The position numbers and the translations under genes are program-made. The notes under the pieces were generated by a model. The model was given only the letters and a program-made list of their open reading frames with translations, had not been told where the DNA came from and ran no database searches. This document shows positions 6,816-19,785 of a stretch of 21,981 nucleotides of DNA, in pieces. How positions within the stretch are numbered: the first letter of the stretch is position 1; every line of letters starts with the position of its first letter. The stretch is from a virus, in the IMG/VR virus record IMGVR_UViG_3300030104_000542, positions 2,325 through 24,305 of that record; one strand, given 5' to 3'.

Positions 6816-6968
6816 TTATCTCCCTTGTTGGTTATATTTTTTATATGATCTGCGTTTGTTTTTATTCATAGATGACATCTTAACTCTACCACCACCTATT
6901 GAAGTTCTTTTGTGTTTTTTTTCATAGACAACAACTTGTCCAAATACATTACCTTTTTTCTTCGCCAT
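6816..6968 (-). CDS. 50-residue basic mini-protein
   Basis: The frame from ATG 6968 reads MAKKKGNVFGQVVVYEKKHK, then RTSIGGGRVKMSSMNKNKRR and a basic end SYKKYNQQGR. The stop TAA at 6816 lies one base before the next start, and the 5' end overlaps the TerS-like gene by 20 bp. The Lys/Arg content and the phrase SMNKNKRRSYKKY recall small basic proteins that I know only as conserved marine-phage hypotheticals. Its end also supplies the Shine-Dalgarno (AGGGAG) for the following gene, consistent with coupled translation. Binding to nucleic acid is a guess from charge. Confidence 0.65.
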   Translation of the reverse strand: MAKKKGNVFGQVVVYEKKHKRTSIGGGRVKMSSMNKNKRRSYKKYNQQGR

Positions 6969-7332
6969 CTATTTCTTCTGCTTTAGCATCTATAATTAAT
7001 GGTAAAGGCTCAACAATAGACTCTGTTTGAGTTCTATCTTTCATACCTAAATAATTCTTACTTAACCAAATTTGCATATTGGTATTATCTTTTTTAACTG
7101 CTTTATCCCACATCTTTTTACGTAAACTAGCTTTTCCTTTTTCTTTGTATTGTTCGATAATTTCGGCATAATTTCTTTTTAAAGTTCTAGCAGATACATT
7201 TAAAACACTTGCTATTTCATAATCAGGACAACCAATAGATGCTAAATTTTTTAATATTTCTATATCTACAATTATTTTAGGTCTACCAGCACCTTGTCTT
7301 TTAACTGTCTTATTTGCCTTATTTTTGTCCAT
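6949..7332 (-). CDS. Terminase small subunit-like helix-turn-helix protein
   Basis: This is a 127-residue protein. GRPK at residues 17-20 leads into a helix-turn-helix (about 24-56: LASIGCPDYEIASVLNVSAR followed by TLKRNY). A conserved tail 'GKASLRKKMWDKAVKKDNTN' and 'MQIWLSKNYLGMKD' follows. This is the usual build of small TerS-like or homeodomain-like DNA-recognition proteins, which bind the packaging site and hand DNA to the large subunit. The end is acidic. The gene overlaps the methyltransferase gene by 14 bp. It lies about 2 kb upstream of the large terminase gene with ten small genes between, so pairing with it is inferred from family, not adjacency. A plain transcription regulator is the alternative. 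Confidence 0.75.
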   Translation of the reverse strand: MDKNKANKTVKRQGAGRPKIIVDIEILKNLASIGCPDYEIASVLNVSARTLKRNYAEIIEQYKEKGKASLRKKMWDKAVKKDNTNMQIWLSKNYLGMKDRTQTESIVEPLPLIIDAKAEEIDGEEKR

Positions 7333-8524
7333 TTTCTAACTCTGCCTTTTTCCCTGTAAAGTTCTCCCACCTTTTAATAATAACATCACAATATTTAGGG
7401 TCTAATTCAATAGCATAACATTTTCTATTTGTTTTTTCACAAGCAATTAATGTACTGCCTGATCCTAAAAATGAATCAAATATTATATCATCTTCTTTAG
7501 AATTATTCAAAATTGCCTTTTGTGATAAAGCAACAGGCTTTTGAGTTGGATGTTTATAACCAACCACACTATCCCTTTTAACATTCCAAATACTAGTGTT
7601 TTTTCTATCTCCATAAAAGGAGTGTTTACCTTGTCCCTCTTTCCAACCATATAATATTGGCTCGTGTTGTGATCGGTAATCTTGCCAACCCATTCCAGCA
7701 TTACCTTTGTCCCATATAATAGTTGAGGATTTTTTAAAAAATTTATCAAAGTTTATTTCAAATGCTATTTTGGGTTTGCTATGACTATCAGGATGACAAA
7801 CATATATACAACCTAAAGGCTTTAAATAATCTGACATTAAATTAAAGTTTTTATATAAAAAATCAATAAAGTCATTCTCTGACATATTATCATTTTTAAT
7901 TTTGCCTAAATCATTATCTCCTCTACCTGAATAATCCACATTATAAGGTGGATCAGTAAATATTAAGTCAGCTTTATTATCATTAAATAAATTTTTAAAT
8001 GTTTCTTCTGATGTGCTATCTCCACAAATTAATTTGTGTTTACCTAATTTCCAAATGTTACTTAATTTTGTAATTGGCTCTTCAGGTGTTTCAGGCACTT
8101 CATCTTCATCAGTTAAACCTTGTTTCTCTTCAAATAATATATTGTTTAGTTGTTCATCGTTAAAACCTAATAAATCTAACTTAAAATCTTTAGCTTCTAA
8201 TTCCTTGATTTCCATTTTAAGTAATTCATTATCCCACTCGGATTCTTCAGCAGTTCTATTATCAGCTATTCTATATGCGTTTATTTGTTCTTCTGTTAAA
8301 TTATCTATTATTGATATAGGTACATTTTTAAGACCTAATTTTTTACTAGCCCTAAATCTAGTATGTCCAGCAACAATAACTCTGTCTTTATCGACCACTA
8401 TTGGTTGTCTAAAGCCATATTCTTTTAAAGACATAGCAACTTTTTCAATAGCAGTATCTGATAATTTTCTCGGATTGTTCTCGTATGGTTTTATAGAGTT
8501 TATATTAGCAATTTCGATTTGCAT
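7319..8524 (-). CDS. ParB-domain / class beta DNA amino-methyltransferase fusion
   Basis: This is a 401-residue two-domain protein. Residues 1-90 are a ParB/Srx-like N-terminal domain with 'IKPYENNPR' and AGHTRFRA (52-59). A linker follows (about 90-150). The methyltransferase part (160-400) has motif IV DPPYNV (191-196), then PTQKPV (326-331), and motif I FDSFLGSGST (349-358) near the end. This order, IV before I, marks the beta class of N6-adenine or N4-cytosine methyltransferases, which use S-adenosylmethionine. No restriction enzyme gene is adjacent. It may therefore protect phage DNA from host restriction or mark it for replication or packaging. Such fusions are common in phages and mobile elements. 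The specificity cannot be read from sequence. Confidence 0.92.
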   Translation of the reverse strand: MQIEIANINSIKPYENNPRKLSDTAIEKVAMSLKEYGFRQPIVVDKDRVIVAGHTRFRASKKLGLKNVPISIIDNLTEEQINAYRIADNRTAEESEWDNELLKMEIKELEAKDFKLDLLGFNDEQLNNILFEEKQGLTDEDEVPETPEEPITKLSNIWKLGKHKLICGDSTSEETFKNLFNDNKADLIFTDPPYNVDYSGRGDNDLGKIKNDNMSENDFIDFLYKNFNLMSDYLKPLGCIYVCHPDSHSKPKIAFEINFDKFFKKSSTIIWDKGNAGMGWQDYRSQHEPILYGWKEGQGKHSFYGDRKNTSIWNVKRDSVVGYKHPTQKPVALSQKAILNNSKEDDIIFDSFLGSGSTLIACEKTNRKCYAIELDPKYCDVIIKRWENFTGKKAELENGQK

Positions 8525-8805: not shown

Positions 8806-8939
8806 TAGTGTTTCTTATGATTATCTGATTCTACGATTGCCCTATAATATTCTAATTGTGTTTTTAATATCTGATTTTCTATACTTAATGCAATAATTCG
8901 TTTTCTACAATATTTAAAAATTCGCAGTATTGCTTTCAT
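8805..8939 (-). CDS. 44-residue helical mini-protein
   Basis: The frame reads MKAILRIFKYCRKRIIALSI, ENQILKTQLEYYRAIVESDN, HKKH. Its ATG at 8939 forms ATGA with the stop of the initiator-like gene, and its TAA forms TAATG with the next start. Exact junctions at both ends strongly suggest a real gene. The first half is a basic amphipathic helix. The second half has a leucine-zipper-like run. It could bind membrane or nucleic acid, but nothing in it identifies a role. Confidence 0.65.
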   Translation of the reverse strand: MKAILRIFKYCRKRIIALSIENQILKTQLEYYRAIVESDNHKKH

Positions 8940-9511
8940 TTATACTCTCTGATTGGTTCTTTTTTCCATTTATGTTTGAGATACTGTTTTTTATCTTTTT
9001 CCAAAATATTATACTGACCCCAGCTTCCGATGGTTTTATACCCATTATTCACATCTTGGTCTTTGTTAGACCTAGTATTTGATATATGTGTATTGTATTT
9101 GTGTATTGACACTTGTTGCGATAGCTGGGCTGTAGGTGGTTGTTCGTTATCCACATATTGATATAAGTCGTAATTTATAAGGCTTATTATAGTGACTTTT
9201 CTACTAGGGTGGTTGTTGCTGGGCTGTAGCTGGGCTGTTCTAGTGCCTATCATTTTTCTACGCACAAGACGTAGTATAAAAGACCTCATTTCAGAGTAAG
9301 TCATACCAAATCTTTTAGCTGTAACTCTTAAAGGCATAATAGCTTCTCCTCGTTTTATAAATATTTCCGAGTCTAAAAATCTTAATGTAACATCTTTATG
9401 AGATGCACTACTTATAAAATATATCCAACAACTAGCTTGTAATAAATTTTTAAATATAGGATTAGAATATATATCTCTATATAAAATAAAATAACCTCTT
9501 TTTTTAGCCAT
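8936..9511 (-). CDS. Replication-initiator-like winged-helix protein
   Basis: This is a 191-residue protein. The N-terminal two thirds have an MAKKRGYFILYRDIYSNPIF start and a helix-turn-helix/winged-helix section (about residues 50-105: 'GEAIMPLRVTAKRFGMTYSE' then 'MRSFILRLVRRKMIGT') followed by 'KVTIISLINYDLYQY'. The C-terminus is polar, Gln/Asn-rich and basic. This is the build of the N-terminal domain of phage replication proteins of the lambda O / DnaD-related group, which bind origin repeats. I chose ATG 9511, which has GAGA/AGAGAG upstream, over the TTG five codons earlier. The gene itself carries direct repeats and DnaA-box matches in the part encoding the linker region. A transcription regulator is the alternative. 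Confidence 0.65.
   Translation of the reverse strand: MAKKRGYFILYRDIYSNPIFKNLLQASCWIYFISSASHKDVTLRFLDSEIFIKRGEAIMPLRVTAKRFGMTYSEMRSFILRLVRRKMIGTRTAQLQPSNNHPSRKVTIISLINYDLYQYVDNEQPPTAQLSQQVSIHKYNTHISNTRSNKDQDVNNGYKTIGSWGQYNILEKDKKQYLKHKWKKEPIREYK
9045..9238. other. Candidate replication origin inside the initiator-like gene
   Basis: Within about 200 bp lie several origin-like elements. There are two DnaA-box matches in the same orientation: TTATTCACA at 9045-9053 and the exact strong-box sequence TTATCCACA at 9147-9155. Two tandem AT-rich 13-mers lie at 9083-9095 and 9096-9108 and differ at one base. GCTGGGCTGT occurs three times (9124-9133, 9218-9227, 9229-9238), and GGTGGTTGTT twice (9135-9144, 9208-9217). 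The GC-rich repeats stand out in AT-rich DNA. Lambda and its relatives also keep the origin and its iterons inside the O gene. That initiation starts here is inferred. All the repeats lie in coding sequence, so repeated peptide (TAQL twice) is part of the signal. Confidence 0.45.
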
Positions 9512-9662
9512 TACTCTCTTTCTCAATCATCTCTATTAACTGCCTTTTGGAGTATCTATTTAATAGTGTTCTAATTATGTTTAATGTTTTTTTAGTTTTT
9601 TCATATTCTCTTGCTTTGTTACTAGATACTACCTCAAAGTGTTCTTCTCTCATCTCTGCCAT
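9504..9662 (-). CDS. 52-residue helical mini-protein
   Basis: The frame from ATG 9662 reads MAEMREEHFEVVSSNKAREY, EKTKKTLNIIRTLLNRYSKR, QLIEMIEKESNG. The start is coupled to the HNH gene stop by TAATG, and the last eight bases overlap the start of the initiator-like gene. The whole chain looks helical, acidic at the start and basic in the middle. I do not recognise it. Its place between a nuclease gene and the initiator-like gene suggests a replication accessory, but only by position. Confidence 0.6.
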   Translation of the reverse strand: MAEMREEHFEVVSSNKAREYEKTKKTLNIIRTLLNRYSKRQLIEMIEKESNG

Positions 9663-9958
9663 TATTTATCTCCAAATAAGTTATAAGCATCTTCCATAAG
9701 TTCTAGTTGTTTATTAACTTGATGTAAGATTGATTGTTCAGTTCCATACTTTTCTATAAATAGATTTTTACCTAAATGAATTGAGTCTTTACCAGTTCTG
9801 TGATGAGTCGGACACAAAGGTATTGTTTGTTGATGATCTGGTCTTAAAGATAATCCTGTATGCGATCTTATATGATGAACCTCTGCCGGTCTGCCACAAC
9901 AAAAACAACCCATTTGGGAAATCTTATCTAATCTATCTTTATCTACTTTGGTTGCCAT
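9662..9958 (-). CDS. HNH-type endonuclease (Ref/YbcO-like)
   Basis: This is a 98-residue protein with a zinc/HNH core: CFCCGRPAEVHHI (residues 18-30), RPDHQQTIPLCPTHHR (39-54) and a helical end with F...KYGTE. The HH pair at 28-29 and the Cys and His residues at 18-21, 49 and 52-53 are the expected metal and catalytic positions. The pattern 'CGRPAEVHH...IPLCPTHHR' resembles the YbcO / P1 Ref group of HNH nucleases found near replication and recombination genes in phages. It would cut DNA using a His metal site. Its substrate is unknown. It overlaps the upstream winged-helix gene by 16 bp. Confidence 0.85.
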   Translation of the reverse strand: MATKVDKDRLDKISQMGCFCCGRPAEVHHIRSHTGLSLRPDHQQTIPLCPTHHRTGKDSIHLGKNLFIEKYGTEQSILHQVNKQLELMEDAYNLFGDK

Positions 9959-17929: not shown

Positions 17930-18556
17930 TTAAGCAATACCATAAAGGCAAATATCTCCAGCATCTATGTTGCCAGTATTAAATTTAAAAATCATAGCAT
18001 CAATAGCTGATGTGGTATTTCCATATCCAGCTATAAAATCGTCCATACTATATGGTGCTGAAGAACTATTTGTGTAGTGAACTCTTGAAACAAAATGTTT
18101 TACAAATGTAGTAGATGATGGATTAAATAAATGCAAATAACCTGAAACAGCATCATCATTATTATTTGATGTTCCAGCAGTTAAAAATTGATCTGAAGTA
18201 GATTGTGCTAAATCATCTGAAGTTTTATATGCTAAACTTGTATATGAATCAGCTTCGTTGTGTTCTGCTCTAAAAAAAGTTGTAGTTTTTGTAACATTAT
18301 AATTACTACCACTATCTGTACTCATATTAAAAACTAATCTTCCACCATCAGTAGCTGGGTGAATGTTATTAAATGTAAATACATATTCCTTATAAGTATT
18401 ATCTAGCACCACACCACTTGCACCATCAACAAAAGATAAAGTTGAAGAACTAGAAGCTGTTAATTTTTTAATAAATATCATACTGCCTAATCCTGTAATA
18501 CTACCAAAAGCAGTTGCGTCTTTTACACCTCTATTATTTAGTTTTACAATGCTCAT
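17930..18556 (-). CDS. Tail fibre-like protein, third tandem copy
   Basis: This is a 208-residue beta-rich protein starting MSIVKLNNRGVKDATAFGSI. Shared blocks with the next two genes include LTASSSSTLSFVDGASGVVL, 'DSGSNYNVTKTTTFFRAEHN', the run of LAQSTSDQFL, LFNPSSTTFVKHF and the end GNTTSAIDAMIFKFNTGNID with LYGIA. The set looks like a repeated globular head or knob for receptor contact. Start and previous stop overlap as TAATG. It follows the second copy and precedes the chaperone. Fibre call is from position and composition. Binding specificity is unknown. Confidence 0.75.
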   Translation of the reverse strand: MSIVKLNNRGVKDATAFGSITGLGSMIFIKKLTASSSSTLSFVDGASGVVLDNTYKEYVFTFNNIHPATDGGRLVFNMSTDSGSNYNVTKTTTFFRAEHNEADSYTSLAYKTSDDLAQSTSDQFLTAGTSNNNDDAVSGYLHLFNPSSTTFVKHFVSRVHYTNSSSAPYSMDDFIAGYGNTTSAIDAMIFKFNTGNIDAGDICLYGIA

Positions 18557-19176
18557 TAACTATCCTTAATTCCATAGAGTTTTATTGTGCCAGCATCTAT
18601 GTTGCCTGAACTCATTTTAAACTGTATTTCATCAACTGCACTTGTGGTATTAAAATATCCAGCTACCATACTCTGAACACTCTGGGGGTCATGGTGCATT
18701 GATTGAGTTGTAGCCATAAAATGTTTTACAAAAGTTGTAGATGAGGGATTAAATAAAAATAATTCTCCGGATACACTACCATCATTATCATTACTAAGTT
18801 CTTGTGTAAGTCTTTGAAAAGATGTTGATTGTGCTAAATCTGATCCTGTTTGATAATCTAATAATGCTTCAGCATCACTTTCTAAATGAATAGCTCTAAA
18901 ATAAGTAGAAGTAATTGTTTCATTATAACCTGAACCACCAGAAGCATTTGCTTGAAATTGAAAAAATACTTGATCGGTTTGAGGGTGGATATTAATAAAC
19001 TTAAAAACATAGATAGGATATGTGCTATCCAAGACTACATCTGAACTTCCATCTACGAATGACAATGTAGAACTAGAACTAGCAGTTAAAGTTTTAATAG
19101 GTACTAATGCACCACTTGATAATGCAGTAGAGGTTACAGCACTTATGCTATTGTTGTTATATTTAACTAATGCCAT
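18556..19176 (-). CDS. Tail fibre-like protein, second tandem copy
   Basis: This is a 206-residue paralogue of its neighbours: MALVKYNNNSISAVTSTALS, TLTASSSSTLSFVDGSSDVV, 'YPIYVFKFINIHPQTDQVFF', 'SGYNETITSTYFRAIHLESD', 'YQTGSDLAQSTSFQRL', 'LFNPSSTTFVKHFMA' and the end MSSGNIDAGTIKLYGIKDS. The same blocks come in the same order, with change concentrated between them, as after duplication and divergence. The start abuts the previous stop (TAA then ATG). The function is inferred to be part of the receptor-binding apparatus. Confidence 0.75.
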   Translation of the reverse strand: MALVKYNNNSISAVTSTALSSGALVPIKTLTASSSSTLSFVDGSSDVVLDSTYPIYVFKFINIHPQTDQVFFQFQANASGGSGYNETITSTYFRAIHLESDAEALLDYQTGSDLAQSTSFQRLTQELSNDNDGSVSGELFLFNPSSTTFVKHFMATTQSMHHDPQSVQSMVAGYFNTTSAVDEIQFKMSSGNIDAGTIKLYGIKDS

Positions 19177-19785
19177 TTATGATACCCCATATAATTTAAA
19201 AGTTCCAGCATCTATGTTACCTGATGACATTTTAAATCTTATTGCATCAATAGCAGATGTAGTGTTTCCATAACCAGCAATAAAAGCATTATAACTATAA
19301 TTTTGATCTGAAACCATTTGAATAGTTGAAATAAAATTTTTTACAAAAACAGTTGATGATGGTTCAAAAATATGAATAAATCCAACCAAACAATGGTCAT
19401 TATCTGTACTCATAGCACCATTTAACAATATTTGCTCTCCTGTACTTTGTGCTAAATCTGATCCTGTATGATAACCATAAGTTGCGGAACTATCATTTTC
19501 ATAATTATATGCTCTATGATATGTACTTGTTTTAGTAACATTGTAATTGCTTCCACTATCAACACTTAAATTAAAAGTAAATGACGCTTGATTAGTTCCA
19601 GCGTGAACATCAGTAAATTTAATAATATATTCTTTATATGTAGAATCTATCCCTGAAGTAAAACTAATTGTAGCTGAACTTGATGCAGTTTGTGTAGAGA
19701 TTAAAGTCATTCCACCACCAGAAATAGAAGCTGGTAAAGATGTTATTGCTGATAAGGAGTTGTTGTTAGCAAAGTTAAGAGCCAT
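19177..19785 (-). CDS. Tail fibre-like protein, first tandem copy
   Basis: This is a 202-residue first member of the triplet: MALNFANNNSLSAITSLPAS, 'TQTASSSATISFTSGIDSTY', 'DSGSNYNVTKTSTYHRAYNY', 'YHTGSDLAQSTGEQIL', 'IFEPSSTVFVKNFISTIQM' and the end KMSSGNIDAGTFKLYGVS. It lacks the extra residues before 'DSTYKEYIIKF' that the other two have. A strong AAGGAG lies before ATG 19785 and is encoded by the end of the upstream chaperone gene. The two later copies lack strong Shine-Dalgarnos, so they may rely on coupling to this one. Confidence 0.75.
   Translation of the reverse strand: MALNFANNNSLSAITSLPASISGGGMTLISTQTASSSATISFTSGIDSTYKEYIIKFTDVHAGTNQASFTFNLSVDSGSNYNVTKTSTYHRAYNYENDSSATYGYHTGSDLAQSTGEQILLNGAMSTDNDHCLVGFIHIFEPSSTVFVKNFISTIQMVSDQNYSYNAFIAGYGNTTSAIDAIRFKMSSGNIDAGTFKLYGVS

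Follow-up and report, generated by a model that had tools for sequence, protein, structure and literature searches.

The question raised by this locus is whether the DNA within a phage gene for an initiator-like protein, in addition to encoding that protein, also serves as the site where replication of the phage genome begins. The window (viz. the whole stretch of 21,981 nucleotides that was analysed) is part of a 24,305-bp IMG/VR virus record, and its closest named relatives are the Pelagibacter phages HTVC111P, HTVC202P and HTVC026P, due to which the window is taken here to derive from a pelagiphage whose host would be SAR11. Pelagiphages rank with the most abundant marine viruses and SAR11 is an abundant ocean bacterium. 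An earlier note had placed an origin within an O-like winged-helix initiator gene of this window, and this central claim is supported by the homology of the gene product to O proteins, by the presence of annotated origins at the same place within the genes for those proteins, and by conservation at synonymous sites. Based on the sequence comparisons described below, it is highly probable that the locus is an origin of the theta type, from which a SAR11 phage replicates its genome and which is contained in the gene for the phage's own initiator.

The initiator gene and its neighbours

The gene in question (8936..9511, minus strand) encodes a protein of 191 aa, which was characterised by means of PHROGs, hhalign, AlphaFold2 and Foldseek. 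Its relatives carry the annotation 'DnaD domain protein', and in PHROGs it matches phrog_27581 (E 4.7e-38) and phrog_2514, DnaD-like helicase loader (E 1.8e-15). There was no match to the O or DnaD models of Pfam, and sequence searches of Pfam, NCBIfam and PDB returned nothing informative for this protein. In the AlphaFold2 model (mean pLDDT 72), a winged-helix domain (residues 1-118) is followed by a disordered linker (119-155) and a short C-terminal module of three beta strands (156-191); the top Foldseek matches of this model were of winged-helix type and weak, none of them having E <= 0.001. The relationship to O proteins is seen in profile comparison, where the pelagiphage profile aligns over residues 4-119 with O of the HK620/P22 type (phrog_345, replication initiation O-like) at an hhalign probability of 97.7 and E 1.7e-12 (BLASTP E 4e-8), and phage CobraSix forms the link between the pelagiphage family on the one side and, on the other, gp18 of P22-like Salmonella phages and the replication protein O found in HK620 and HK022.

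Among the relatives, the C-terminal module of the initiator (8936-9053) is found swapped just downstream of the proposed origin block (L066, L078 and L080), one example of the exchanged modules being ...KHKWKDEPIKDYE versus ...KHAFDDTKPLLENI. A C-terminal module that is swapped at a conserved DNA junction fits what might be expected of a partner-interaction module. Several other genes of the window also deserve mention. Just upstream of the initiator gene lies a gene for a small HNH protein (9662-9958), which matches a RecA-dependent nuclease (PF16786), and downstream of it a ParB-N domain is fused to an N6/N4 DNA methyltransferase of 401 aa (7319-8524); in HTVC111P, the gene directly after the initiator gene is for a putative cytosine methyltransferase. 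The gene at 6949-7332 likely encodes the terminase small subunit (phrog_309, E 1.5e-8), its relative in HTVC202P being annotated only as a putative DNA binding protein, and three tandem genes resembling each other (17930-19785; 202-208 aa) are possibly paralogous structural genes.

Repeats and AT-rich units in the wing and linker codons

Every sequence quoted in the earlier note was found at its position. The repeat GCTGGGCTGT starts at 9124, 9218 and 9229, and GGTGGTTGTT occupies 9135-9144 and 9208-9217. Both of these repeat units are thus real, but they do not constitute two families; they belong to a single family with a phasing of 10-11 bp. Its core, RMCCAS on the coding (minus) strand, occurs at five sites that form two arrays (3+2). 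Array 1 (9206..9235, minus strand) falls where the gene encodes the wing hairpin (residues ~93-102) and contains three CCA-core sites, viz. GCCCAGCTA at 9227-9235, GCCCAGCAA at 9216-9224 and AACCACCCT at 9206-9214, which are spaced by 11 and 10 bp. Array 2 (9122..9141, minus strand) lies at the start of the linker and consists of AACCACCTA at 9133-9141 and GCCCAGCTA at 9122-9130, with a spacing of 11 bp.

Next to array 2 lies an AT-rich region (9074..9108, minus strand), which is proposed as the unwinding region. The two abutting AT-rich 13-mers reported earlier, TATATGTGTATTG (9083-9095) and TATTTGTGTATTG (9096-9108), are indeed present, but they form part of a set of three units that recur every 13 bp: CAATACACA at 9100-9108, the same sequence again at 9087-9095, and TCAAATACT at 9074-9082. 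These units fall in three different reading frames, and AT units of the ACTAATACACA type are retained in the relatives. The duplex stability of this region is ordinary for this AT-rich genome, with 19% of windows being less stable (1.5% in HTVC111P). The entire cluster had been placed between the folded domain and the tail of the protein. This holds for array 2 and the AT units, which lie in the linker (119-155), but not for array 1, which lies in the wing hairpin.

The occurrence of these repeats by chance is improbable. A 10-mer in three copies within 120 bp was seen in 0/200 shuffles, and when the protein was held fixed by synonymous-codon shuffling the triple-copy 10-mer recurred in 0.04% of the shuffles, an equal number of cross-frame repeated 10-mers being reached in 0.9%. 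It had also been suggested that the repeats may in part reflect a repeated peptide, TAQL. However, the reading frames are 0, 2 and 0 for the copies of ACAGCCCAGC and 0 and 1 for those of AACAACCACC, and since the copies stand in different codon frames, the peptide cannot have given rise to them. Phased iteron clusters were found neither elsewhere in the window nor outside the initiator gene in three complete relatives, which led to the rejection of a further origin at another place in the genome. The GC skew, which had been recommended as a check, gave no origin mark, as the skew in the window tracks gene orientation; the skew at fourfold sites in three complete genomes was likewise uninformative and shows no switch at the proposed site.

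Synonymous sites and DnaA-box-like sequences in the relatives

If the repeats and the AT units function as DNA, then they should be retained in the relatives irrespective of the freedom of codon choice. The ortholog set comprised 146 distinct genes from IMG/VR and GenBank phages, of which 115 form clade I (inclusive of the window) and 31 form clade II (HTVC026P type). In 57 independent clade I pairs, a synonymously constrained block, the proposed origin core, extends over ~9050..9139, with a synonymous ratio of 0.00-0.32 (at most ~40% of expectation; z -4.6 to -7.0). The constraint is strongest in the windows at 9074-9106, where 0-2 synonymous differences are present versus 25-41 expected, and the ratio over the AT-rich region as a whole is 0.00-0.19; in the rest of the initiator gene the ratio is mostly 0.7-1.7. 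In clade II the ratio likewise drops at the corresponding position, to 0.13-0.38 (gene nt 361-465), and the first 60 nt of the gene are also low in this clade (0.33-0.59). In the neighbouring genes at the same loci, the lowest ratio is 0.34-0.69 with z >= -3.9, as against 0.05 and z ~ -8 in the initiator gene. The codons of the linker coincide with this block, and array 2 falls within it. Conservation at synonymous sites in relatives was what the earlier note had named as bearing upon its own refutation, and the conservation found is strong. Array 1, in the wing codons, shows only a weak constraint at its synonymous sites (ratio 0.76-1.02), although 89-99% of the clade I genes retain its CCA cores. 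Further, the genes of clade I each contain, on average, 2.36 iteron cores in pairs of 10/11 bp spacing, versus 0.07 after synonymous shuffling; the arrays of clade II are less regular, two phased pairs being present in just 5/31 genes. Concerted evolution of the five sites was also considered, and is not proposed here: a naive permutation was significant in clade I, but branch-wise coincidences are mostly near chance.

Within the constrained stretch the amino acids vary, which indicates a stricter conservation of the DNA than of the protein. This observation bears directly upon the possibility that the low synonymous rate and the repeats are both due to a coding constraint or an overlapping gene. 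In favour of this possibility it can be said that sites 1 and 5 encode a TAQL-like peptide and that, in 72% of the genes of clade I, one antisense frame is open. However, the repeats occupy different reading frames and the amino acids change where the DNA stays fixed, and in clade II just 32% of the genes have this antisense frame open, with the other frames stopped in most genes. An overlapping ORF was therefore rejected, based on the poor retention of the antisense frame in clade II and the stops in other frames, and this explanation as a whole is largely refuted and extremely improbable.

The conservation could also be due to an RNA-level or transcriptional element (viz. a structured RNA, an internal promoter or an operator). 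In clade II, a conserved inverted repeat, ACTAATA...TATTAGT, is present and folds weakly (mean z of -2.1 for the coding strand), and autoregulation by binding of the initiator to the iterons is conceivable. However, clade I lacks a consensus structure (alifold empty; mean z -0.1 and -0.96), no match was found in Rfam, promoter-like sites are at chance level with none of them within the block, and the single terminator-like hairpin (9058-9072) is also at chance level, making an element of this kind very unlikely. A site for packaging (pac, cos) or for recombination (a hotspot of module exchange) is similarly a highly improbable explanation. Although C-terminal modules are exchanged among relatives just downstream of the block, and synonymous diversity can fall through recombination, the terminase small subunit gene lies elsewhere (6949-7332), the same dip occurs independently in two clades, and recombination does not produce helically phased CCA repeats like those in the annotated origins of the homologues. 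Recombination at the module boundary could, in part, contribute to the low synonymous diversity.

An origin within the initiator gene thus being the preferred reading, it needs to be considered whether it also uses host DnaA, as the earlier note had claimed. Two DnaA-box-like sequences are present on the plus strand, viz. TTATTCACA at 9045..9053, at a fixed position on the far edge of the constrained block, and TTATCCACA at 9147..9155, just upstream of array 2 and outside this block. Two copies of TTATNCACA in 22 kb represent no excess (1.63 expected; 45/100 shuffles reach 2). If the origin were a hybrid one, in which the phage initiator and host DnaA are both needed and two functional boxes flank array 2 and the AT region, then several features of the boxes would be accounted for: a same-strand pair within 120 bp is rare (1/200 shuffles), the boxes are confined almost wholly to two fixed positions, they are one-stranded (antisense in 54/115 and 21/31 genes of clades I and II, versus sense in 2/115 and 0/31), their number per clade I gene is 0.63 as against 0.12 in synonymous shuffles, and a GTG valine codon is tied to the box context (43/50 GATAA genes). 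However, the box at 9147 is present in 43/115 clade I genes and 0/31 clade II genes and shows a synonymous ratio of 1.15-1.18; the box at 9045, with exact copies in 27/115 genes of clade I and 21/31 of clade II, is thus partly kept; and 61/115 genes of clade I and 10/31 of clade II are without an exact box. In addition, the box counts are phylogenetically non-independent, box 1 showing ~11 gains and 5 losses by parsimony. A requirement for DnaA is thus poorly supported and a hybrid origin appears doubtful, whereas assistance by DnaA in some members, not as a conserved requirement, is possible.

Comparison with known in-gene origins and the proposed mechanism

The origins most closely comparable with the proposed one are those annotated within the O gene of HK620 (rep_origin, nt 393-488) and within gene 18 of the P22-like Salmonella phage L (putative ori, nt 397-473), both of which are depositors' annotations. 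Similar to the window phage, these phages combine a homologous winged-helix initiator with an in-gene origin that is placed behind the winged-helix part and made of 11-bp CCA-core repeats, which in HK620 form two arrays of three. However, the sequence of the iterons differs from that in the window phage, and in the HK620 type both arrays lie past the winged-helix domain, whereas array 1 of the window phage lies in wing codons. HK620 O also has a C-terminal part of ~130 aa and an adjoining gene for a DnaB-like helicase, whereas the window phage has a short tail and no helicase gene. The lambda origin lies inside gene O and comprises 4 iterons and a 38-bp AT-rich region, 127 bp in all (PMC3349717), and it resembles the proposed origin of the window phage in the placement of iterons followed by an AT-rich stretch within an initiator gene; it differs in having four 18-bp iterons in place of five short sites at 10-11 bp spacing, and no counterpart of the P-like loader of lambda was found in the window phage. 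In SPP1, oriL lies inside gene 38, which encodes the replisome organizer, and contains direct repeats and an AT-rich unwinding element (PMC6316719), an arrangement within an initiator-type gene that is like that in the window phage. However, SPP1 has its own loader gp39, helicase gp40 and a second origin oriR, whereas no second iteron cluster was found in the window.

The 11-bp phasing is also seen more widely. In 28/34 non-redundant DnaD/O-like initiator genes, 11 or 22 bp is the strongest repeat period, located at 0.35-0.52 of the gene. Synonymous shuffles of these 34 genes favour 11 bp as well (36%); the encoded peptide itself probably carries this period, and due to this the synonymous-shuffle null would be conservative. 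Examples are provided by phages HS2 (Pseudoalteromonas), CobraSix (Enterobacter) and BH1 (Lactobacillus), which, like the window phage, carry phased repeats of 11 bp within the gene, in their case at 0.42-0.44 of its length, a repeat copy of HS2 being likewise within wing codons. In these three phages, the proteins are longer than the window initiator and the repeat sequences are phage-specific, and in CobraSix and BH1 a helicase or loader gene adjoins the initiator gene, unlike in the window. Perfect or near-perfect 11-bp tandem repeats, each with a different sequence, were also observed in the middle of DnaD-like genes of Lactobacillus, Staphylococcus and Pseudoalteromonas phages (L228:640-672, L231:1032-1064 and L219:1511-1560), and these look like unannotated origins.

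The homology of the initiator to the O type, the layout of the iterons and the DNA-level constraint at the site were computed directly. In the mechanism that we propose, the winged-helix domain of the initiator would bind the five CCA-core iterons, which lie about one helical turn apart in arrays of 3 + 2; the resulting nucleoprotein complex would open the adjoining AT-rich stretch, in which the three units recur every 13 bp; the initiator would then place the host DnaB helicase at the opened region; and the host replisome would copy the phage genome. The model of iteron binding, AT opening and helicase loading is established for lambda (PMC3349717) and SPP1 (PMC6316719). The use of the host replisome is proposed because no helicase, P-like loader or polymerase is annotated in HTVC202P, HTVC026P and HTVC111P, and none was detected among the proteins scanned with PHROGs; the missing adjacent helicase or loader gene is read as suggesting reliance on host DnaB. 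This agrees with what is stated for phages of the HTVC010P type, which are described as having no DNA polymerase and just a lambda-like helicase loader, and as using the host replisome (PMC10504331).

In a limited open-access search of the literature no origin of a pelagiphage was found, and the type of in-gene origin known from lambda O, P22 gp18 and SPP1 gp38 is apparently proposed here for SAR11 phages for the first time. A defined origin of ~200 bp lends itself to marker-frequency, binding and minireplicon tests. The signature of 11-bp iterons across the DnaD/O-like family would help in locating origins in uncultured phages. A broader proposal, whose prospects of being correct we regard as evenly balanced, is that helically phased 11-bp iterons in wing or linker codons are a general signature of DnaD/O-like initiators in phages of Firmicutes, enteric bacteria and SAR11, and that the 191-aa pelagiphage protein recruits host DnaB directly. 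If this signature proves to be general, then for many uncultured phages the initiator gene could suffice for reading off the origin and its recognition sequence.
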